Source: Olivibacter jilunii (GTDB lineage: Bacteria > Bacteroidota > Bacteroidia > Sphingobacteriales > Sphingobacteriaceae). From it: DNA of 64,000 nt. Positions 4,077 to 40,836 of this stretch are shown in pieces. Where the stretch lies: positions 124,001-188,000 of the forward strand of contig NZ_LR027849.1 of the NCBI RefSeq assembly GCF_900607235.1. The letters run 5' to 3'. A program made the translations under genes and the position numbers. The notes beneath the pieces were generated by a model, which saw only the letters and a list, made by a program, of their open reading frames with translations, did not search any database and had not been told where the DNA came from. Position 1 is the stretch's first letter; every line of letters starts with the position of its first letter.

Positions 4077-6437
4077 TTACTCATCCCTTAATGAATCAAT
4101 CGGATTGGCTATTGCCGCTTTAATGGCTTGTGAACTCACAGTGAGTAAAGCCAGTATAAGCGCCCCCAATCCTGCGATGATAAATAAACCCCAACCGAGG
4201 GAAATACGGTACGTGTAAGCTTCCAGGAATTTATCCATCGCCCAATAGGCAATTGGAAAAGCTACCAAACAAGAAATGATGACTAACCAGGCAAATTCTT
4301 TGGACAGCAAGCGTGTAATGGAAAAAACCGACGCACCGAGTACTTTGCGGACTCCAATTTCTTTCGTCCGATTTTCGGCCATATAGGCGGCAAGTCCAAA
4401 TAAACCCAGGCAGGAAATAAAGATGGTGAGAAAAGCAAATAAAGCTGCCATGGTGCCGGTTTGCTCGGATTCCTTGAATTTAGCGGCGTAAGCTTTGTCT
4501 ACAAAGTTGTAGGCGAAAGGATAATTGGGGTTGTAGCGCTTAAAAATGGCTTCTGTTTTAGCAAGCGCAGTAGCCGTAGATAAGGCAGGATTGAACTTGA
4601 TATGCATGACGTTAAACCATCCTTTCGCTCCTTCGATGACAGCAGGTTCCACGGGTTCATAGGGTGAACGCGAAATAAAATCGGCCACCACCCCCACTAC
4701 GTGCCATTCAATGCCATTATCTTTGATCAACTGGCCAATGGGGTCTTTGAAGCCCATAAGTCTTACGGCTGATTCATTTAAAAGGATGGCTGTGGAATCG
4801 GTAGGGTACTGCGTCAGGTCCATGTCCCTACCGGCCACTAAACGAAGACCGGCTGTTTTTACAATGTGCTCGTCAGCACACATACGGTCGATAAGTGTTT
4901 TATCGTTTGGTGCTTTTCCCTGCCACCAAAATCCATTACTGTTACTCCAACTTTCGGTAATTGGAGAATTGGATCGCGTGACCGATACGGCTACACCTCC
5001 TTGGAGCAGCTCATTTTTGATCAGCTTGCTGTTCTTGGCGACCTCGCCCTCCTCCGAAATATAAACGACATTGTTTTTGTCATAACCATTTTCCCTGTCT
5101 TTTGCGTATTGGATTTGTTTATGAACAGCCAAGGTGCTTATAATAAGAATGATGGCAATTGTGAACTGAATAACTACCAGGATTTTACGAAGACTAAAAG
5201 TGGCTTTTGCTTGTTTAAAGGTGCCTTTTAACACCTTAACAGGCTGAAAGGAGGAAAGGAAAAATGCCGGGAAACTGCCGGCGAGCAAGCCTGTTATTAA
5301 AATAAAGCCTACGGCGTTTAACCAAAACTGGAAATGACCAAAATCAACAGCTAAACGCCTGCTGATTAAATTGCCGAAGGAGGGTAGGGCTAACCAGGTA
5401 ATAAACAGGGCGATGACGCCGGAGATGGCGGCAATCAAAATGGATTCGCTTAAAAACTGGCCGATCAGCGACACGCGATAGGCGCCCGCTACTTTTCGGA
5501 TGCCGACTTCCTTGGCCCGTTTCTCACTTCGGGCGGTGCTAATGTTCATGAAGTTAATGCAGGCAATTACTAAGATGAAAACGGCGATCAGCGTGAAGAG
5601 GTTGACCATATCAATGCGCCCGCCCACTATCTTTCCATTTTCAAATTTGGAGCGGAGCCACCAGTCGGGGAGTGCATGCAGCAGGACTTCCGTGTCTTCC
5701 TCCGGTCCATTATGCCGCTTGGTGATGTCCTTAATCTTCCTGTCCATTGCCTCTTTGCTAATGCCCGGATTTAATTCTACATAGGTCTGCACGGAATTGT
5801 TGCTCCAGTAGTCGTCACTATAACCGATCTTTTCCATGTATTTCCAGGGAAGCAGGAACTCCACGTCTGTGAACCGGGTATTGCCGGGCATATCGGCTAG
5901 AACACCGGAGACGGTCACTACATCTACACTATCTATTTTGAGCGTCTTCCCCAGTGCTTCTTCTTTGCCAAATAAGCGTTTAGCCAGGCTTTGGCTAATG
6001 ACAATTTCGGTGGGGGTTTTTAAGATATGCTCTTTATCGCCTTCCAGCAACGGAAAATCGAACATGGAAAGGAAAGCGGAATCAACGAAGGCGCCCTGAC
6101 CCTTTAGTTTCTTGTCGCCCACGGAGAACAGAAAACTATTATCGGAGTAGCGGCTGTAATGGGCTATTTCCGGAAATTCCGCTTTGGCGGCCGGCCCTAA
6201 AGGCTTGGGCGTGTAGAACCACACCTGAAGTTTATCGCCCCAATTGGCTCGGTTTCCTACTAAAAAGAGTTGGTCTTTTTTATGGTGAAATAGGTCAAAA
6301 CTCCGTTCGTTTTGTACCCAGGAAAGGATCAACATGGCAGCTGCCATACCGATAGCCAAGCCTGTTATGTTCAAGATGGAATACCCTTTGTTTTTAAGTA
6401 GATTGCGCCAAGCAATTTTGATGTAGTTCTTTATCAT
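4077..6437 (-). CDS. FtsX-like (MacB-type) ABC transporter permease
   Basis: A 786-residue inner-membrane protein with the Bacteroidota double FtsX layout. It has an N-terminal membrane segment (GYSILNITGLAIGMAAAMLILSW), a large periplasmic MacB_PCD-like domain, three membrane helices near residues 285-420 after STARSEKRAKEVGIRKVAGA, a second periplasmic domain, and three C-terminal helices after MAENRTKEIGVRKVLGAS. No ATP-binding subunit is encoded anywhere in this window, so it must pair with one elsewhere or act without a linked one. The roles of such permeases in Bacteroidota are mostly unknown; MacB relatives transduce force to export or lipoprotein-handling systems. It is preceded by tandem TGTTCG-N4-CGNACA palindromes like the permeases at 32290 and 36164. 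Confidence 0.9.
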   Translation of the reverse strand: MIKNYIKIAWRNLLKNKGYSILNITGLAIGMAAAMLILSWVQNERSFDLFHHKKDQLFLVGNRANWGDKLQVWFYTPKPLGPAAKAEFPEIAHYSRYSDNSFLFSVGDKKLKGQGAFVDSAFLSMFDFPLLEGDKEHILKTPTEIVISQSLAKRLFGKEEALGKTLKIDSVDVVTVSGVLADMPGNTRFTDVEFLLPWKYMEKIGYSDDYWSNNSVQTYVELNPGISKEAMDRKIKDITKRHNGPEEDTEVLLHALPDWWLRSKFENGKIVGGRIDMVNLFTLIAVFILVIACINFMNISTARSEKRAKEVGIRKVAGAYRVSLIGQFLSESILIAAISGVIALFITWLALPSFGNLISRRLAVDFGHFQFWLNAVGFILITGLLAGSFPAFFLSSFQPVKVLKGTFKQAKATFSLRKILVVIQFTIAIILIISTLAVHKQIQYAKDRENGYDKNNVVYISEEGEVAKNSKLIKNELLQGGVAVSVTRSNSPITESWSNSNGFWWQGKAPNDKTLIDRMCADEHIVKTAGLRLVAGRDMDLTQYPTDSTAILLNESAVRLMGFKDPIGQLIKDNGIEWHVVGVVADFISRSPYEPVEPAVIEGAKGWFNVMHIKFNPALSTATALAKTEAIFKRYNPNYPFAYNFVDKAYAAKFKESEQTGTMAALFAFLTIFISCLGLFGLAAYMAENRTKEIGVRKVLGASVFSITRLLSKEFAWLVIISCLVAFPIAYWAMDKFLEAYTYRISLGWGLFIIAGLGALILALLTVSSQAIKAAIANPIDSLRDE

Positions 6438-6466: not shown

Positions 6467-6482
6467 ACATAAATGGAGCCAT
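6467..6482 (-). promoter_or_regulatory. Weak sigma-54-like -24/-12 element
   Basis: On the minus strand the bases read ATGGC-N7-ATGT, a degenerate match to TTGGC-N7-TTGC. Its value lies in position. It starts 53 bases after the proximal palindrome (6535-6550), almost exactly as in the two other permease promoters (54 bases). Confidence 0.4.
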
Positions 6483-6534: not shown

Positions 6535-6571
6535 TGTTCGTTTTCGAACAGTGATTGTTCATTGGCGCACA
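6535..6571 (-). promoter_or_regulatory. Tandem palindromes (candidate enhancer sites) of ABC permease gene
   Basis: Two 16-bp palindromes: TGTTCGTTTTCGAACA (6535-6550, perfect) and TGTTCATTGGCGCACA (6556-6571), starting 21 bp apart. The proximal one lies 97 bp upstream of the permease start codon. The same pair is seen upstream of the permeases at 32290 and 36164. This suits a dimeric sigma-54 enhancer-binding protein of the NtrC type; none is encoded in this window. Confidence 0.65.
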
Positions 6572-31560: not shown

Positions 31561-32139
31561 ATGAGAACAAAAGACTTTGATGAGAACGAGATATTAAAGA
31601 AAGCGATTTCTATTTTTTGGGAGAAAGGTTATCATGCGACTTCCCTGTATGATTTAATAGAAGGCCTCGGCATCGGGCGGTCAAGTATTTACCATGCCTT
31701 CGGCGACAAACATAAGCTGTTTGTAAAAGCGCTTGAGCGATATCAGGAGGAAGCCACCGCACGTATTGAAGCCGCCCTGAACGATGCATCCTCCGTTAAA
31801 GAGGGAATTAAGGCACTCTTGCGTATCGGTGTTGTGGATAGGCTAGACAGTGCATGCCCTAAAGGATGTTTTAAGGTGAATACGGAGGTAGAGCTTGCTA
31901 CCCATGATGAATTGATCAGGAAGGTGCTGCGCGAGGATGAACGGCTAATTGAAGAGGCACTGATCAAAGCGATTAAAAAAGGACAGGCTGACAGGCAGAT
32001 CAACGCTTCCAAAGATCCAAAGGTACTTGCGCATTTTTTATGTAACACCATCACGGGGTTGCGCGTGTATTCCAAAGTTCGGAGCGATCGTTCATTTTTC
32101 GAAGGCGTCATCGAAACGGCCTTGTCGGTGTTGGATTAA
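31561..32139 (+). CDS. TetR/AcrR-family regulator
   Basis: A 192-residue repressor. Helix-turn-helix AISIFWEKGYHATSLYDLIEGLGIGRSSIYHAFGDKHKLFVKALERYQ (about residues 13-60). The C-terminal domain has DSACPKGCFKVNTEVELATHD, with two Cys that could sense oxidants or electrophiles. It is paralogous in layout to the TetR at 21768. It follows the interrupted SDR and is the likely ligand-responsive repressor of the 17-bp inverted repeat at 30692. Its ATG directly abuts the T-run of a terminator, so it is either leaderless from a cryptic promoter or dependent on read-through. Confidence 0.92.
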   Translation: MRTKDFDENEILKKAISIFWEKGYHATSLYDLIEGLGIGRSSIYHAFGDKHKLFVKALERYQEEATARIEAALNDASSVKEGIKALLRIGVVDRLDSACPKGCFKVNTEVELATHDELIRKVLREDERLIEEALIKAIKKGQADRQINASKDPKVLAHFLCNTITGLRVYSKVRSDRSFFEGVIETALSVLD

Positions 32140-32150
32140 CCATGTATATC

Positions 32151-32188
32151 TGTTCGCAAGCGTACACCTAGGTGTTCGTAATCGCACA
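32151..32188 (+). promoter_or_regulatory. Tandem palindromes (candidate enhancer sites) of ABC permease gene
   Basis: TGTTCGCAAGCGTACA (32151-32166) and TGTTCGTAATCGCACA (32173-32188), 22 bp apart, each with one mismatched arm base. Same motif, order and distance as at 6535-6571 and 36033-36069. Confidence 0.65.
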
Positions 32189-32241: not shown

Positions 32242-32257
32242 TTGGCAGCTTTATTGA
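32242..32257 (+). promoter_or_regulatory. Sigma-54-like promoter (TTGGC-N7-TTGA)
   Basis: TTGGC (32242-32246), 7 bp, TTGA (32254-32257), close to the -24/-12 consensus TTGGC-N7-TTGC. It starts 54 bp after the proximal palindrome, as at 36123. Predicted start of transcription near 32268; ATG at 32290. Confidence 0.55.
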
Positions 32258-32289: not shown

Positions 32290-34674
32290 ATGTTAAAAAA
32301 TTATCTCAAGGTAGCTTGGCGAAATCTGGTTAGAAACAAGGTACATGCCATGATCAATATTTTTGGTCTGGCATTCGGTATGACCATTAGTATCTTGATT
32401 GCTTTATGGATTTGGGATGAGGTGTCATTTAACAAGCGCTTCAAAGATAATGAGCGTATTGTCAAGGTATTACACCATTCTTCCGACGGCCTTCATATCA
32501 ATACCTTTAATACGATATCCATTCCGACAGCCGAAGAACTCAAAGATAAGTTTGCGCAGGATTTTGAGGGAATCGCCTTGTATCGTAATGGGCGAGCAAC
32601 GCTGACAAAAGAGAATGGGGAGGAGAAAGCCATTAGCCAGGGTTTTTATGCTGAACCTGCATTCCCTGCTATTTTATCTCTGAACTTAACAAGGGGATCT
32701 CTTGGTGATTTCACCGACCCATCCACCATCTTAATCAGTGAACGCCTTGCGGCGGTTCTTTTTAACCAAGAGGATCCAATAAATCAGACTATTAAAATAA
32801 ACAATGAATCGTCTGCAAAAGTTATTGGTGTTTACCGGAACTTTGCACCCAATACCGATTTTAATAAACGGGACTTTATTCTTCCCTGGAGTCATTTGCT
32901 TGCGACGAGACCATGGGTTAAAAGGGCTTATAACCAATGGAATAATAATTCCTTTTATATTCTAGCTAAAATAGCGAAGCGTGCTGATTTAAAAAAGGTA
33001 ACTAATAAAGTAAAGAACCTGCTGCTGGGTAAGCCTAATCGGGATGATCATCCCGAGATTATCCTTCAACCTGCTTCTGAATGGCATCTGTACAATGAGT
33101 TCAAAAATGGCAAAAATGTGGGCGGTAATATCCAGTTTGTGTGGATGTTTGGATTAATCGGCGTTTTTGTATGTCTATTGGCCTGTATTAATTTCATGAA
33201 CCTCAGTACTGCGCGATCTCAGAAGCGGGCAACCGAGGTGGGGATTCGAAAGACAGTTGGATCTTCGAAAGCGTATTTGATTATTCAGTTTTTAAGCGAA
33301 TCTGTACTGATTGCATTTTTTTCGGCTCTTGTAGCCATCGTATTGGTTTGGCTAGCCTTGCCTTGGTTCAATAACCTAGCTAATAAGGAGATTGTTTTTC
33401 CATTGCAGGCTCCGCTATTTTGGTTGGCCATTTTTCTGTTTGCACTGTTGGCCGGGCTGTTATCCGGAAGTTATCCGGCGCTATACCTGTCTTCATTTAA
33501 ACCGGTGGGGGTGTTAAAAGGCGTGATGAAGGTGGGACGCTTTGCGGAGATATCGAGGCGCTCGCTAGTTGTTTTTCAGTTTACGGTTTCGCTTTCGCTG
33601 ATTATCGGAACGGTAATCATTTATCAGCAGATAAACTATGTCAAAAACCGACCGTTGGGTTATAATCAAGACGGCTTGATCAGTGTGGAAATAAATACAC
33701 CGGATTTAAGGTTGCCAGGTGTTTATAATGTTTTGCGGAACGAGCTGCTGAATTCGGGGTATGTAGAGAACATGGCTGCGGCCTCTAATACTGCCACCGG
33801 CATCAATAACCATTTTGATGGCTTTGATTGGCCGGGGAAACAGCCTCATATCAATCAAAGTTTTGGCGTCTCTTACGTGACGCATGATTTTGGAAATACG
33901 GTAGCATGGGAATTTAAGGAGGGACGGGGTTTTTCAAGGGATTTTCCGACCGATAGCAATGCGGTTATTCTGAACGAAGCTGCGGTGCGGTATATGGCTT
34001 TACAGCATCCGGTGGGAGAGACGATAAAATTCGAGGATGTGCCCTATAAGGTAATTGGTGTGATTAAGAATGTGTTAATGGAATCGCCTTTTGAGGAAGT
34101 ATACCCCAACGTATTTATGCTGAGTTACAATAACCTGGAAGCGATAACGATTAAGATCAAACCTAACGTAAGCACTGCGAAGGCGCTCAAAGCAATTGAG
34201 GTCGTACTAAAAAAATATGATCCGGCATCGCCATTTGCCTATAGTTTTGTGGATACAGACTATGCAGATAAGTTTTCCTTTGAGCAGAAAATAGGGAGCC
34301 TGGCTTCTTTATTTGCCGGCTTTGCTATTTTTATCAGTTGCTTGGGCATTTTCGGTTTAGCAGCGTTCATGGCCGAACAACGGACCAAGGAGATTGGCGT
34401 ACGGAAGGTGCTGGGAGCGACGGTGTTCAATCTCTGGATTTTACTATCAACGAACTTTTTGCTGTTGGTCGTCATTTCCTTTTGTTTGGCGATTCCTATT
34501 TCGTGGTATATGATGGAAAATTGGTTGGCCGATTATGATTATCGTACGAATATTTCCATATGGGTCTTTGTTTTAACTGCGGTTGGGGCGGTGGTTCTTA
34601 CCCTGGCTACCGTGAGTTTTCAAACGATAAAGGCAGCCTTGGCAAATCCGGTAAAATCGCTGAGGAGTGAATAG
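32290..34674 (+). CDS. FtsX-like (MacB-type) ABC transporter permease
   Basis: A 794-residue inner-membrane protein, paralogue of 4077-6437 and 36164-38551. Start ATG 32290 (MLKNYLKVAWRNLVRNK) matches the family start; an upstream TTG extension would cover the -24/-12 element. N-terminal helix MINIFGLAFGMTISILIALWIW, first FtsX helices after STARSQKRATEVGIRKTVGSS, second after MAEQRTKEIGVRKVLGAT, and the C-terminal ANPVKSLRSE. No ATPase gene adjoins it. Export or envelope role by family; substrate unknown. Confidence 0.92.
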   Translation: MLKNYLKVAWRNLVRNKVHAMINIFGLAFGMTISILIALWIWDEVSFNKRFKDNERIVKVLHHSSDGLHINTFNTISIPTAEELKDKFAQDFEGIALYRNGRATLTKENGEEKAISQGFYAEPAFPAILSLNLTRGSLGDFTDPSTILISERLAAVLFNQEDPINQTIKINNESSAKVIGVYRNFAPNTDFNKRDFILPWSHLLATRPWVKRAYNQWNNNSFYILAKIAKRADLKKVTNKVKNLLLGKPNRDDHPEIILQPASEWHLYNEFKNGKNVGGNIQFVWMFGLIGVFVCLLACINFMNLSTARSQKRATEVGIRKTVGSSKAYLIIQFLSESVLIAFFSALVAIVLVWLALPWFNNLANKEIVFPLQAPLFWLAIFLFALLAGLLSGSYPALYLSSFKPVGVLKGVMKVGRFAEISRRSLVVFQFTVSLSLIIGTVIIYQQINYVKNRPLGYNQDGLISVEINTPDLRLPGVYNVLRNELLNSGYVENMAAASNTATGINNHFDGFDWPGKQPHINQSFGVSYVTHDFGNTVAWEFKEGRGFSRDFPTDSNAVILNEAAVRYMALQHPVGETIKFEDVPYKVIGVIKNVLMESPFEEVYPNVFMLSYNNLEAITIKIKPNVSTAKALKAIEVVLKKYDPASPFAYSFVDTDYADKFSFEQKIGSLASLFAGFAIFISCLGIFGLAAFMAEQRTKEIGVRKVLGATVFNLWILLSTNFLLLVVISFCLAIPISWYMMENWLADYDYRTNISIWVFVLTAVGAVVLTLATVSFQTIKAALANPVKSLRSE

Positions 34675-36032: not shown

Positions 36033-36069
36033 TGTACATTACCGCACAGTAGTTGTTCGTATCCGAACA
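36033..36069 (+). promoter_or_regulatory. Tandem palindromes (candidate enhancer sites) of ABC permease gene
   Basis: TGTACATTACCGCACA (36033-36048) and TGTTCGTATCCGAACA (36054-36069, perfect), 21 bp apart. Same arrangement as at 6535 and 32151. Confidence 0.65.
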
Positions 36070-36122
36070 TGATTTAAATGCCTAAATAGGGTTTTGTGAG
36101 CTACAGGAAGGCAATTTGGCTT

Positions 36123-36138
36123 TTGGCTTTGTAATTGT
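36123..36138 (+). promoter_or_regulatory. Sigma-54-like promoter (TTGGC-N7-TTGT)
   Basis: TTGGC (36123-36127), 7 bp, TTGT (36135-36138). It starts 54 bp after the proximal palindrome, exactly as in the promoter at 32242. ATG at 36164. Confidence 0.55.
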
Positions 36139-36163
36139 GCGTTTCTGTAGTAATCCGTTCATT

Positions 36164-38551
36164 ATGCTTATTAACTACTTAAAATCTGCCTGGCGTACAC
36201 TGTGGAAAGATAGGTATTATGCCCTTATCAATGTCTTTGGCTTAGCGGTATCGACCGCCGTATTTCTATTGTTAATTCATTTTGTCCGCTTTGAATATAG
36301 CTATGAGAACTTTATTAAAAAAGCAGATGATTTGTACCGCGTAACGTTGGACAATTATAACGGATCTGAATATGTGGATACCGATTGTGAAACTTTCCCG
36401 CCCTTAGGGCCATTTTTAAAACGGGAAATGCCGGAGGTGCTGGATTTTGCCCGGTTACAAATGTTGGAGGATAATAATGAGATTCAGTATAAGCATCGAG
36501 CTTTCCGGATTGAGCATATTTATGCGGCGGATCCTTCTACTTTTTCTTTATTTGAAGTGCCTTTCGTTAAAGGAGATGCCGACAGTTTTCATCGACCCTA
36601 TCAATTAGTCTTATCTGAAACGGAAGCAAAGCGAATTTTTGGATCGGAAGATCCCATTGGAAAAACTGTTAAGCAAGAAAATACGCTATATACGGTTACC
36701 GGTGTTTTTCAGGACTCACCGGCAAACACACACCTTAAGCTGGATGTATTGGTTTCTTTCTCTTCATTGAATGCATTAGGCTGGTCAATCGATGATAATT
36801 GGGGAGGAAATAACAATTATCTATATATACAATTGCCGCCAAAAATAGATGTCAACGCCTTTAATGCAAAACTACATGCGCTGACGAAGAGCAAGTTAAA
36901 TGAAAGGGTCAGAAACGTTTTTAATGCGGAACCGATTAAATCAATCCACTTGCATTCGCATAAATTCTTCGAACCGGAGGTGAATGGCGATGTTAAAGCG
37001 GTTAATTTTCTGGCCGTTATTGCGCTGTTGATCTTGTTGGTGGGATCGGTGAATTATGTGAACCTTACCACGGCAAGAGCGTCTGATCGGGTGAAAGAGA
37101 TTGGTATGCGTAAATTGTTGGGCTCTTCCAAAGGACTGCTCATTCGCCAACTGCTCTTAGAAACGTTGATTATTAATGTGGCAGCTATAGGTTTTGCGAT
37201 GTTGTTGATCGTTACAGTCTTACCTTTTTATAGACAGCTGATTGGGCGGGATAATCCGGTTGACCTGCCGGGTACTGGATTCTTTTGGTTGAGCATCGCC
37301 TCTTTACTTTTGTTTAATTGCGTTATTTCGGGACTGTATCCGGCTTTTCAATTGGCGGCTACTAAACCGATTAAGGTGGTAGGCCGAGTCTTTACGACCG
37401 ATAAAGAGGGTAGTTTCTTTCGTAAAGCGCTTATTGTGGGGCAGTTTGTAGCTGCCATGGTGGTGCTATCAGCCACCTTAATCGTTTTTCAACAATTGAA
37501 ATTTTTAAAAAACCAGGATATCGGTTTAAACCCCTCGGAACTATTGGTAATCCGTGGGCCAAAAACTGGTGCTGATTCGCTACGTAGCCAAAAAGGTCTG
37601 GCCTTTAAGAATAGCTTGCTCGCCTTGCCCGAAGTGGAGAAGGTCGCACTTTCCGATGCGGTGCCTACAGCGCTGTATGATGTTAGCACTTCTGTGGGAA
37701 TCACACGTTACGGTGCTACCGACAAAAATCGATATAACTACAATCTCTATGGCATAGACGAAGACTTTGTTCCTACCAATGATATCAAATTATCAGCAGG
37801 TAAGAACTTTGAAAAAGGGTCACTAAATGAAAATAAACTCATTATTAACGAAACGGCGGCAAAATTGTTGGGCTTTGAAAGTCCGGCAGCCGCGGTAGGT
37901 GGACTGATCGATTTATGGGGAGCCAAAAGAACGGTTATAGGTGTAATACGTGATTTTCATCAGCATTCTTTAAAGGAAGCCGTGCCACCAATGATCCATT
38001 GGTATAGCACAAGAAGTGATTTCTTTACCGTAAAGCTACAGACCGACCATGTTGCGAGCAGTTTGCTGACGATTGAGAAAGAATGGAAAGCTGTCTACCC
38101 TGAATATGCCCTGAATTATCATTTTATGGACGAACTATTGGATCAGCAGTATCAATCTGACCGTCGATTTGGCGAGGTAGTGGGTGTTTTCTCCGTATTG
38201 GTGCTTCTGATTACCTGTTTGGGTGTTCTGGGTTTAACTACCTATACTATTCATAAACGTACCAAAGAGATCGGTATTCGAAAAGTGCTGGGCGCTTCGA
38301 TACCTGATATCGTAAGCTTATTGTCGTTTGAATTTGTAAGATTGATTGCACTGGCTTTGGTAGTGGCAATTCCCATAACCTGGTATGCCATGAACAACTG
38401 GCTGCAAAATTATGCGCTGCATATCCAGATCCCTTGGTGGGTGTTTGGGCTGGTCGGTTTATTTGCAGTAGGTATCACAATATTAACCTTAAGCTATCAG
38501 ACGGTTAAAGCCGCTTGGATGAATCCGGTTGAGTCCTTAAAAAAGGAATAA
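36164..38551 (+). CDS. FtsX-like (MacB-type) ABC transporter permease
   Basis: A 795-residue permease. Start ATG 36164 (MLINYLKSAWRTLWKDRYYALINVFGLAV); an upstream TTG extension would cover the promoter. It has the same two-module layout as the paralogues: TTARASDRVKEIGMRKLLGSS before the first helix set, THKRTKEIGIRKVLGAS (with YTI before) before the second, and NPVESLKKE at the end. It is more divergent in the first periplasmic domain. Orphan, with no ATPase nearby. Confidence 0.92.
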   Translation: MLINYLKSAWRTLWKDRYYALINVFGLAVSTAVFLLLIHFVRFEYSYENFIKKADDLYRVTLDNYNGSEYVDTDCETFPPLGPFLKREMPEVLDFARLQMLEDNNEIQYKHRAFRIEHIYAADPSTFSLFEVPFVKGDADSFHRPYQLVLSETEAKRIFGSEDPIGKTVKQENTLYTVTGVFQDSPANTHLKLDVLVSFSSLNALGWSIDDNWGGNNNYLYIQLPPKIDVNAFNAKLHALTKSKLNERVRNVFNAEPIKSIHLHSHKFFEPEVNGDVKAVNFLAVIALLILLVGSVNYVNLTTARASDRVKEIGMRKLLGSSKGLLIRQLLLETLIINVAAIGFAMLLIVTVLPFYRQLIGRDNPVDLPGTGFFWLSIASLLLFNCVISGLYPAFQLAATKPIKVVGRVFTTDKEGSFFRKALIVGQFVAAMVVLSATLIVFQQLKFLKNQDIGLNPSELLVIRGPKTGADSLRSQKGLAFKNSLLALPEVEKVALSDAVPTALYDVSTSVGITRYGATDKNRYNYNLYGIDEDFVPTNDIKLSAGKNFEKGSLNENKLIINETAAKLLGFESPAAAVGGLIDLWGAKRTVIGVIRDFHQHSLKEAVPPMIHWYSTRSDFFTVKLQTDHVASSLLTIEKEWKAVYPEYALNYHFMDELLDQQYQSDRRFGEVVGVFSVLVLLITCLGVLGLTTYTIHKRTKEIGIRKVLGASIPDIVSLLSFEFVRLIALALVVAIPITWYAMNNWLQNYALHIQIPWWVFGLVGLFAVGITILTLSYQTVKAAWMNPVESLKKE

Positions 38552-38583: not shown

Positions 38584-40836
38584 CTATGTCTTTAAATACT
38601 GATTTAAGTAGCTTGCAGTAACACTGGTTTTGTTTTTTAATAGCTGTTCTACGGTTCCTTCAAATACAATTTCACCGCCGTATTTTCCGGCCCCGGGCCC
38701 AATATCAATAATCCAATCTGCTCTGGCAATGATGTCGAGGTTATGTTCAATTACAATAAGCGTATTGTTTTGATCAACCAGCTGGTTCAGAAAAATCAAT
38801 AATTTTTCGGTGTCGCTAGGATGGAGGCCTGTGCTCGGCTCATCCAAAATAAGGATATTGCCGGAACCACTCAGCTCTTTTGTTAATTTCAGGCGTTGTC
38901 TTTCTCCACCTGAAAAAGTATCTAACCGTTGACCAAGCGTTAAGTATTCCAATCCCAACTGAATTAACAAGTTAAAAGCTTTTGAAAACAGGGGTTCAGG
39001 AAAAAGGGAAATTGCATCGGTGATGGTCAGCTTCATCACATCGGCAATGCTCAACTTGCGGTAAGTATATTGCAAAACTTCGGGGTCATATCCCGAACCG
39101 CCACATACCTCGCATGGTTGTTCGATGTCGTCTATAAATGCAAGATCAATCTTTTCTACTCCCAAGCCTTTGCAGTTTTTGCAGGCCCCTTCGCTGTTTC
39201 TGCTAAATAGTTTTTCTGATACCTGATTGGCGTCAGCAAAGAGCTTTCTAAGGGCATCAGATAAATGAAGGTAGGTTAATACATTGGATCGGACATTGCT
39301 TACGAAGGCCGATTGATCAATGATGGTGGCTTGGGGATAAAAATCCGGTAGTACACCATGAATTAAGGTGCTTTTTCCGGAGCCGGCTACACCGGCGACA
39401 ACGGTAAAGACACCTTCGGGAATGCGCACGGAAACGTTTTTTAAATTATTTTTGGTGGCATTTTTGATTTCCAGATATCCCTTAGCCTTGCGTGGATTTT
39501 TATTGAACGAAGGACGCTGTGCGAAATAGCGGCCCGTTTTTCCATCCGATTGCTTGAGACCTGCAAAGCCGCCCTGGTAGATGATTTCGCCGCCATTGCT
39601 GCCCGATCCCGGCCCCATGTCTACTACTTGATCGGCTATTTTAATGAGATCCGGATCGTGTTCTACGATCAGCACGGTATTTCCTTTGTCTTTTATCTGA
39701 TGGATGATCGAAGCGATATGTTGAACGTCCTTTGGATGCAAACCAATACTGGGTTCATCAAAAATATAAAGTAAATCGACCAAACTACTGCCAAGGTATT
39801 TCACCATTTTAATCCGCTGCGACTCGCCACCGGATAATGTGTCTGTTCGCCGGTCCAGCGTTAAGTATTGCAAACCAATATCGCAGATGTTTTGGAGCTT
39901 TTTGGTTATTTCCTGAAGAATGACGGCATAGGCTTCGGATTGTAGGTTATTAATGAAATGCAATAACTCATCGATAGCTAATGCGGTGCAATCTGCTATA
40001 TTTTTTCCGCCTATTTTACAAGAGAGTACCTTCTTATTTAATCGTTGTCCTTTACAGGAAGGGCAAGTTTGTATACTTATTATCTGCTTTAAGGCCTGTT
40101 TACGTGTATGATATTCCTTGGCATCTTTTCGTAAAAAAGCTTGTTCAATTCGCGGGATTACGCCCTCATACTTTACCGTCTTGCCCCAGTTTTTATCGGG
40201 GTGCGGAGGTTTATGCTCCGAAGCATAAAGTAACCTATTCCACTCGTCTTCGGTATAGTCCTTCAGTTTTTTATCGTTGTCAAAATAACCGGCATATACA
40301 TAGCGGGTCCAACGCCAGCCACCAGGCTGGAAGGTTGGAAATAAAATAGCGCCTTCGTTTAACGACTTCTCCTTATCGATGAGTGCGGATACGTTGACGG
40401 TCTGAACAAAGCCTAATCCCTCACATTGTGGGCACATGCCCTGGGGGTTATTAAAAGAAAAGACATTAGAATACCCTACAAAAGGCTGGCCCATCCGCGA
40501 AAACAGAAGCCGTAAAGGAGCATATACATCGGTTGCTGTGCCGACCGTAGAACGTGCATTGCCCCCTAATCTTTTTTGATTGATAATGACCGGAACATTG
40601 AGATTTTCAATCCGATCTACATCGGCAACGCCATAGTGCTGTAAGCGATTTCGGATAAAACTACTCTGCGTTTCATTGATCTGCCGTTGTGCCTCTGCAC
40701 CAATGGTTTCAAACACCAAGGATGATTTGCCGGAGCCTGAGACACCCGTAAAAACGGTGATACTTTTTTTTGGAATCTCGAGTGAAATATTTTTAAGGTT
40801 ATTTTGCCGTGCATGGATGATTTTGATAGAAGACAT
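38584..40836 (-). CDS. UvrA-like ABC protein (short UvrA paralogue)
   Basis: A 750-residue protein with two ABC ATPase modules of UvrA type. First Walker A GVSGSGKSS (residues 31-39), zinc-finger CPSCKGQRL, signature LSGGESQRI; second Walker A GVAGSGKST, CKNCKGLGV and CEVCGGSGYDP, signature FSGGERQRL. Canonical UvrA is about 940 residues; this one lacks the UvrB-binding region, like the short class II UvrA proteins linked to drug tolerance. It is divergent from a MarR gene and shares its palindromic operators, so it may be an inducible defence against DNA-binding toxins; inferred. Confidence 0.88.
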   Translation of the reverse strand: MSSIKIIHARQNNLKNISLEIPKKSITVFTGVSGSGKSSLVFETIGAEAQRQINETQSSFIRNRLQHYGVADVDRIENLNVPVIINQKRLGGNARSTVGTATDVYAPLRLLFSRMGQPFVGYSNVFSFNNPQGMCPQCEGLGFVQTVNVSALIDKEKSLNEGAILFPTFQPGGWRWTRYVYAGYFDNDKKLKDYTEDEWNRLLYASEHKPPHPDKNWGKTVKYEGVIPRIEQAFLRKDAKEYHTRKQALKQIISIQTCPSCKGQRLNKKVLSCKIGGKNIADCTALAIDELLHFINNLQSEAYAVILQEITKKLQNICDIGLQYLTLDRRTDTLSGGESQRIKMVKYLGSSLVDLLYIFDEPSIGLHPKDVQHIASIIHQIKDKGNTVLIVEHDPDLIKIADQVVDMGPGSGSNGGEIIYQGGFAGLKQSDGKTGRYFAQRPSFNKNPRKAKGYLEIKNATKNNLKNVSVRIPEGVFTVVAGVAGSGKSTLIHGVLPDFYPQATIIDQSAFVSNVRSNVLTYLHLSDALRKLFADANQVSEKLFSRNSEGACKNCKGLGVEKIDLAFIDDIEQPCEVCGGSGYDPEVLQYTYRKLSIADVMKLTITDAISLFPEPLFSKAFNLLIQLGLEYLTLGQRLDTFSGGERQRLKLTKELSGSGNILILDEPSTGLHPSDTEKLLIFLNQLVDQNNTLIVIEHNLDIIARADWIIDIGPGAGKYGGEIVFEGTVEQLLKNKTSVTASYLNQYLKT

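Follow-up and report, generated by a model that had tools for sequence, protein, structure and literature searches.

NtrC-type regulators such as AtoC, ZraR and NtrC combine a receiver, an AAA+ domain and a Fis-type helix-turn-helix (HTH), and they serve −24/−12 promoters preceded by tandem palindromes; a sigma-54 two-component regulon is therefore a known kind of system. ADOP families are large paralogous permease families without an adjacent ATPase. Bce-type modules of Firmicutes combine MacB/FtsX-superfamily transporters with OmpR-type regulators and a kinase that has two N-terminal helices. In Bacteroidia, passages of one paper predict sigma-54 promoters upstream of COG0577 FtsX-like permeases and claim first evidence for them (PLoS One 2025; PMC12316311), and passages of another give two Dyadobacter species 28 and 33 permease copies "of unknown function" (PMC11573002). 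Here, we describe a 64,000-bp stretch of the Olivibacter jilunii genome (the window; contig NZ_LR027849.1, C2:124001-188000), in which two 16-bp palindromes (boxes) at 36033-36069 precede a sigma-54-like promoter and a duplicated MacB/FtsX permease gene. The paired palindromes are probably the enhancer of an NtrC-type regulator encoded at C1:806840-808183, which would drive about 30 sigma-54 promoters; this reading rests on sequence comparison. Computation established the operator and its geometry, what its targets are, and that it is conserved next to the regulator.

The regulator and its operators share the three domains and the tandem palindromes upstream of a −24/−12 promoter with AtoC, ZraR and NtrC. 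They differ in that the regulator has a GAFTDA loop, its best NCBIfam score is 363 bits for AtoC (cut-off 714), and the operator is unlike those known for AtoC, ZraR and NtrC. The three window permeases match ADOP model TIGR03434 over its full length (263, 292 and 290 bits) but lie under the curated cut-off of 622 bits, and hence are not filed as ADOP; in contrast to ADOP, the permeases here have a candidate regulator and a co-regulated ATPase. All three kinds of part of the darobactin exporter DarBCD are present, an ATPase (304 bits, DarD), an adaptor (178 bits, DarC) and permeases (79–119 bits), although all fall under the equivalog cut-offs (375, 450 and 700) and so are not filed as members. 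With Bce-type modules, the system here shares MacB/FtsX-superfamily transporters and a kinase whose two N-terminal helices leave almost no loop outside; it differs in having a sigma-54 activator plus an adaptor/TolC-type path.

The 2025 predictions concern the same permease class and the same link to sigma-54; the passages on those genes give no operator or activator, and the words "palindrome", "UAS", "upstream activator" and "orphan" are absent from the main text (PMC12316311). Open-licence PMC literature yielded no description of the operator, the activator, the regulon or their link to duplicated orphan permeases, which does not prove absence from print, and no account of when orphan permeases are produced or of their energy source. 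The preliminary description of this DNA knew of no publication on the motif; that literature likewise gave none on the operator or activator, but the sigma-54/FtsX link had been predicted in 2025, in the passages cited above. Several Bacteroidota carry many duplicated permeases that lack an ATPase of their own, with 33 loci in the O. jilunii genome. To our knowledge, a dispersed regulon of about 30 duplicated permeases, many without their own ATPase, around one exporter chassis is a new form of the known sigma-54 two-component regulon.

Paired boxes, promoters and targets in the genome

The distal box TGTACATTACCGCACA (36033-36048, no strand) has one core mismatch, and the proximal box TGTTCGTATCCGAACA (36054-36069, no strand) is exact. 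They are followed by a sigma-54-like −24/−12 element, TTGGC-N7-TTGT (36123-36138, + strand), and by a gene for a 795-aa duplicated permease (36164-38551, + strand) with two Pfam MacB_PCD and two FtsX domains. Two further window loci are built alike. Pattern search located boxes TGTTCGCAAGCGTACA (distal, 32151-32166) and TGTTCGTAATCGCACA (proximal, 32173-32188), neither assigned a strand, ahead of element TTGGCAGCTTTATTGA (TTGGC-N7-TTG; 32242-32257, + strand) and a 794-aa duplicated MacB/FtsX permease identified by Pfam (32290-34674, + strand). On the minus strand, boxes TGTGCGCCAATGAACA (distal, 6556-6571, minus-strand reading) and TGTTCGAAAACGAACA (proximal, 6535-6550) precede a weaker element, ATGGCTCCATTTATGT (ATGGC...; 6467-6482), and a 786-aa duplicated MacB/FtsX permease, also identified by Pfam (4077-6437). 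The three TGTnCG-N4-CGnACA pairs are where the preliminary description had placed them, with starts 21 bp (36033/36054), 22 bp (32151/32173) and 21 bp (6556/6535, minus strand) apart, and the distance from proximal box to element agrees with it as well, at 54 bp for the 32290 and 36164 permeases and 53 bp, to the weaker element, for 6437. A TetR-type regulator gene (31561-32139) stops 12 bp ahead of the distal box at 32151, and permease 32290 may be under two regulators.

For this 6.70-Mb, 21-contig assembly, genome-wide statements draw on pattern and profile searches and on fetched stretches. Single boxes with up to two mismatches occurred 24 times in the window against 12.3 expected, a modest excess reached in 1 of 100 shuffles. 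Since a lone box is only about twice as frequent as chance, the pair is the informative signal. With up to three mismatches, the pair was found across the genome at 16 sites with a 5-bp gap and at 7 with a 6-bp gap, and a reversed control pattern gave no match in the same whole-genome search. A script run on stretches already fetched, where alone a 4-bp gap was sought, added two pairs with that gap. The pair with a downstream −24/−12-like element recurs about 30 times in the genome.

Promoters were scored at the 22 sites whose pairs have a clear downstream gene; C13:112422, C2:201552 and C7:311460 were left out because their promoter side or quality is doubtful. The score measures agreement with TTGGC-N7-TTG 49–54 bp past the proximal box and has a maximum of 8.5. 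Scores of at least 7.5 were reached at 15/22 sites, compared with 4/1188 control windows and 0/22 on the opposite side (binomial p about 1e-32). The −24 GG is invariant in a MAFFT alignment of the sites (22/22). Several −12 elements are weak, and a few aligned elements have low scores or fall outside the 49–54 bp window. The −24 GG and the −12 element at standard spacing mark these promoters as sigma-54-like, more weakly at some sites. The boxes lie about two helical turns apart and roughly 80–115 bp upstream of the presumed start, which is the expected geometry for a sigma-54 enhancer.

The census of permeases with Pfam MacB_PCD gave 67 matches at 39 loci, 33 duplicated and 6 single-unit. Thirty of the duplicated permeases are one open frame (about 790–840 aa) and three are split frames (C4:265851, C1:1298369 and C6:246632, counted as one locus each); single units are about 410–430 aa. 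The preliminary description had named a random distribution of the motif relative to FtsX genes, and an absence of rpoN, as grounds for its rejection. A site lies upstream of 31/33 duplicated permease loci, 23 directly and 8 behind another same-strand gene, and upstream of 0/6 single-unit MacB-type genes (Fisher 9e-6). We infer that the eight permeases behind another gene belong to its operon. One clear RpoN gene is present (C9:24988-25467, 190 bits), plus one weak match.

A profile, R1, was built from the 22 sites, which score in it by construction. Its genome run gave 84 matches up to E = 10, many of them opposite-strand echoes that were not counted as sites. At E up to 0.00101, R1 recovered ten non-training sites, of which seven are new. 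Five of the seven stand directly ahead of permeases lacking a pattern match, and two ahead of genes for PF00144 serine hydrolases (C4:348656 and C2:639422); the remaining three of the ten are untrained pairs already known from the pattern, with doubtful targets (C7:311461, C13:112357 and C2:201501, the last a partial match). The match at C2:160030-160146, over the 36033 pair, is a training sequence. Training sites also precede a third PF00144 hydrolase (C4:272273), a TolC-type gene (C1:715985), a HlyD operon encoding adaptor, ATPase and permease (C1:806556) and, from an intergenic position, a ROK gene (C3:552955). The HlyD and ATPase genes are separated by about 510 bp, and a second ATPase gene (L065:18502-19167) follows a site-bearing permease.

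The three hydrolases share the operator and promoter arrangement of the permeases. Their nearest models are class C beta-lactamase and AmpH, far under cut-off; scores against class C beta-lactamase NF033085 are 109, 81 and 86 bits, short of the equivalog cut-off of 415. The orphan-permease regulon under an NtrC-like regulator that was first suggested is supported computationally, but its targets are broader and include TolC-type, adaptor, ATPase and serine-hydrolase genes.

Two sites stand apart. At C3:552953-553059, between mqo and a ROK-family gene, the promoter has all nine scored letters, and the ROK frame follows at about 180 bp. Either ROK or a short unannotated product could be transcribed from it. 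At C7:311460-311496, a near-perfect box pair forms a long inverted repeat, and neither side has a convincing promoter or gene.

Long perfect inverted repeats at some pairs (C3:552955, C7:311460) would also suit RNA hairpins or terminators of adjoining genes. This role was dropped as highly improbable, because the boxes lie upstream of the predicted transcript, and their position and orientation track the downstream permease and its promoter with a 20–22 bp phase.

Candidate activator and its conservation

The genome encodes five strong proteins and seven weak matches in a Sigma54_activat search. The preliminary description had proposed looking for an NtrC-family gene beside another such permease, and one was found at C1:806840-808183. 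It is divergent from the HlyD-ATPase-permease operon, with an exact box pair in the shared intergenic region, and is followed by a kinase gene (C1:808183-809502). Response_reg, Sigma54_activat, AAA_lid_14 and HTH_8 are all over cut-off in the regulator, giving receiver, AAA+ and Fis-type HTH in one protein, and the receiver sequence DLVLLD includes a phosphorylatable aspartate, D54. Simple hydropathy gives the kinase two N-terminal helices with almost no outside loop, a layout that resembles intramembrane-sensing kinases. Its sequence further includes a weak match to PAS and a discernible H-box.

Conservation was examined in 201 family genomes using a strict pattern (5-bp gap, at most one mismatch). 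The pattern occurs in 69/201 genomes, and control matches were 0 in each. Regulator orthologues, defined by an author-chosen cut-off better than 1e-125, are present in 66/69 pattern-bearing genomes against 62/132 without the pattern (Fisher 2e-13, relatedness not corrected for; table hand-compiled, with 39 match-less genomes given as a number only). R1 was run at E up to 1e-5 on four Olivibacter and nine Parapedobacter genomes and gave 259 matches including echoes, 3–34 per genome. The gene just downstream was examined for 30 of these matches, and in all 30 it encodes a permease (23), an adaptor (6) or an ATPase (1).

Orthologue loci were taken as the best 80 of 589 candidate relatives and span genera such as Mucilaginibacter, Sphingobacterium, Niastella, Pontibacter, Rufibacter and Cesiribacter; several loci end at contig edges. 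At E up to 0.1, the single-genome profile R1 has a match in the 1.1 kb that precede the regulator in 59/80 loci; this zone makes up 5.7% of the searched DNA. Five Sphingobacterium loci have R1 matches 1.4–2.1 kb upstream of the regulator, with a TolC-type gene between. HlyD is present in 60/80 loci, a close ATPase (64–92% identity) in 60/80 and permeases in 69/80. Compared with the O. jilunii proteins, the HlyD-operon ATPase has a median identity of 84% (60 loci), the regulator 66% (80 loci), the adaptor 64% (60 loci), the kinase 52% (78 loci) and the permeases 32–37% (62–64 loci; best matches, not strict orthologues).

Four other strong activators are encoded in the genome, and genomes G013 and G177 carry sites with no detectable regulator orthologue, as would be expected if one of the other activators controlled the same sigma-54 regulon. 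This assignment is unlikely and was dropped: no R1 match lies beside any of the four at E <0.1. By contrast, an exact pair lies in the intergenic region of the proposed regulator, a box stands beside 59/80 of its orthologues, and 66/69 strict-pattern genomes carry it.

A looser script that sought the boxes alone found the pair in 49/80 orthologue loci. Autoregulation was tested on the regulator side of the intergenic region in these 49 loci and 1470 control windows; scores of at least 6.5 occurred in 10/49 and of at least 7 in 0/49, compared with 7.6% and 1.4% of controls. On the transporter side, 22/49 loci have an element scoring at least 6.5. TGGYA is at its expected place in 44/47 transporter-side promoters of relatives against 48/892 control windows, the promoters having been picked with a profile that contains the element.

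Exceptions and weaker points

Several observations weigh against the C1:806840-808183 regulator as activator of the sites through sigma-54. No site precedes two of the 33 duplicated permease loci, C3:391495 and C6:246632; C6:246632 also contains an internal stop. The pairs at C7:311460, C2:201552 and C13:112422 have no clear promoter, and promoter spacing in the HlyD operon is shorter by one base. The sigma-54-contact loop is GAFTDA in this regulator, and GAFTDA or GAYTDA in 78/80 loci, compared with canonical GAFTGA. In the boxes-alone set, transporter-side elements score at least 7 in 8/49 loci against 1.4% of 1470 control windows and never reach 8, which is above control but weak. Among relatives, Olivibacter G013, a draft of 120 contigs, gives 27 R1 matches if echoes are counted, and its full-length permease matches form a long row, but the search for regulator, kinase and adaptor orthologues was negative; this reflects either a gap in the draft assembly or a real counter-example. 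One pattern match occurs in G177, where the same three orthologues were likewise not found. The strict pattern gave 0 matches in every Mucilaginibacter genome sampled, although the regulator is present. In two Mucilaginibacter loci that were read (L138 and L143), the regulator side has a variant box, TGTACG-N4-TGATACA-like and ending TGATACA, and the HTH is nearly identical.

The GAFTDA loop, the weak −12 elements and the only moderate excess of orthologue-locus promoter scores over control could also mean that a repressor, or an activator independent of sigma-54, binds the boxes and that the likeness to TTGGC-N7-TTG is incidental. This is very unlikely, given an element at a fixed 49–54 bp in 15/22 sites against 4/1188 windows and 0/22 on the other side, the invariant GG, and the TGGYA count in relatives, where sites were picked with the element-containing profile.

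Parapedobacter genome G042 (C51:131262 onward and C20) speaks for the proposed regulator, as a natural case of activator loss. An in-frame deletion fuses regulator residues 1–54 to kinase residues 279–439. This genome has 3 R1 matches, compared with 10–29 in the other eight Parapedobacter genomes, and several partial permease matches with one full-length. The pattern fits a regulon that eroded following loss of its activator.

Proposed regulon and window neighbours

Under control by the C1:806840-808183 regulator, stimulation of the membrane-anchored kinase would activate this NtrC-type protein, presumably in response to envelope or membrane-active peptide stress. The regulator would then occupy both boxes, two helical turns apart and about 80–115 bp upstream of the presumed start, and drive sigma-54 RNA polymerase at about 30 promoters. 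About 31 duplicated MacB/FtsX-type permeases would be produced jointly with a TolC-type channel, two LolD/MacB-type ATPases, a membrane-fusion adaptor and three serine hydrolases from the beta-lactamase/carboxypeptidase superfamily. Binding of the regulator to the boxes, use of sigma-54 at the promoters and transcript sharing by downstream genes are predictions. The common operator, the candidate activator and kinase, and the co-regulated ATPases make the orphan permeases a testable system, and an inducer of one promoter would address the whole permease set.

The leading candidate for the regulon's role, held with roughly even confidence, is to export or detoxify harmful compounds at the envelope, because a TolC-type channel and serine hydrolases are co-regulated. 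Secretion or envelope maintenance, such as lipoprotein or peptide export under a physiological rather than a stress signal, is a serious though less than even prospect. Scores of 223–239 bits, against 304 for DarD, also link the ATPase to LolD, FtsE and bacteriocin exporters, and the permeases resemble the ADOP family, for which we know of no assigned function. The co-regulated TolC-type channel, the serine hydrolases and an adaptor nearest to DarC (darobactin export) speak against such a role, none of them decisively.

Permeases without their own ATPase gene may draw on a shared ATPase. That the ATPase is the most conserved part fits one ATPase having to suit many partners. We tentatively suggest, as an idea that may well prove wrong, that one conserved ATPase, an adaptor and an outer-membrane channel serve about 30 divergent permeases that are interchangeable and that a single membrane-sensing sigma-54 two-component system turns on together. 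If so, the ATPase-less permeases abundant in some Bacteroidota genomes would be pooled specificities for one exporter chassis, and the ADOP families of Acidobacteria possibly as well.

The three window permeases have two MacB/FtsX units each and no adjacent ATPase, a statement that applies to these three genes only; some other regulon permeases adjoin ATPase genes. The regulon ATPase has no match in the window (tblastn, 1e-6), and the ABC-type protein found among the scanned window neighbours is UvrA-like (38584-40836). This 750-aa protein has a UvrA DNA-binding domain, is encoded convergently with the 36164 permease, and is no exporter ATPase. Permease 36164 itself matches MacB structures along part of its length.

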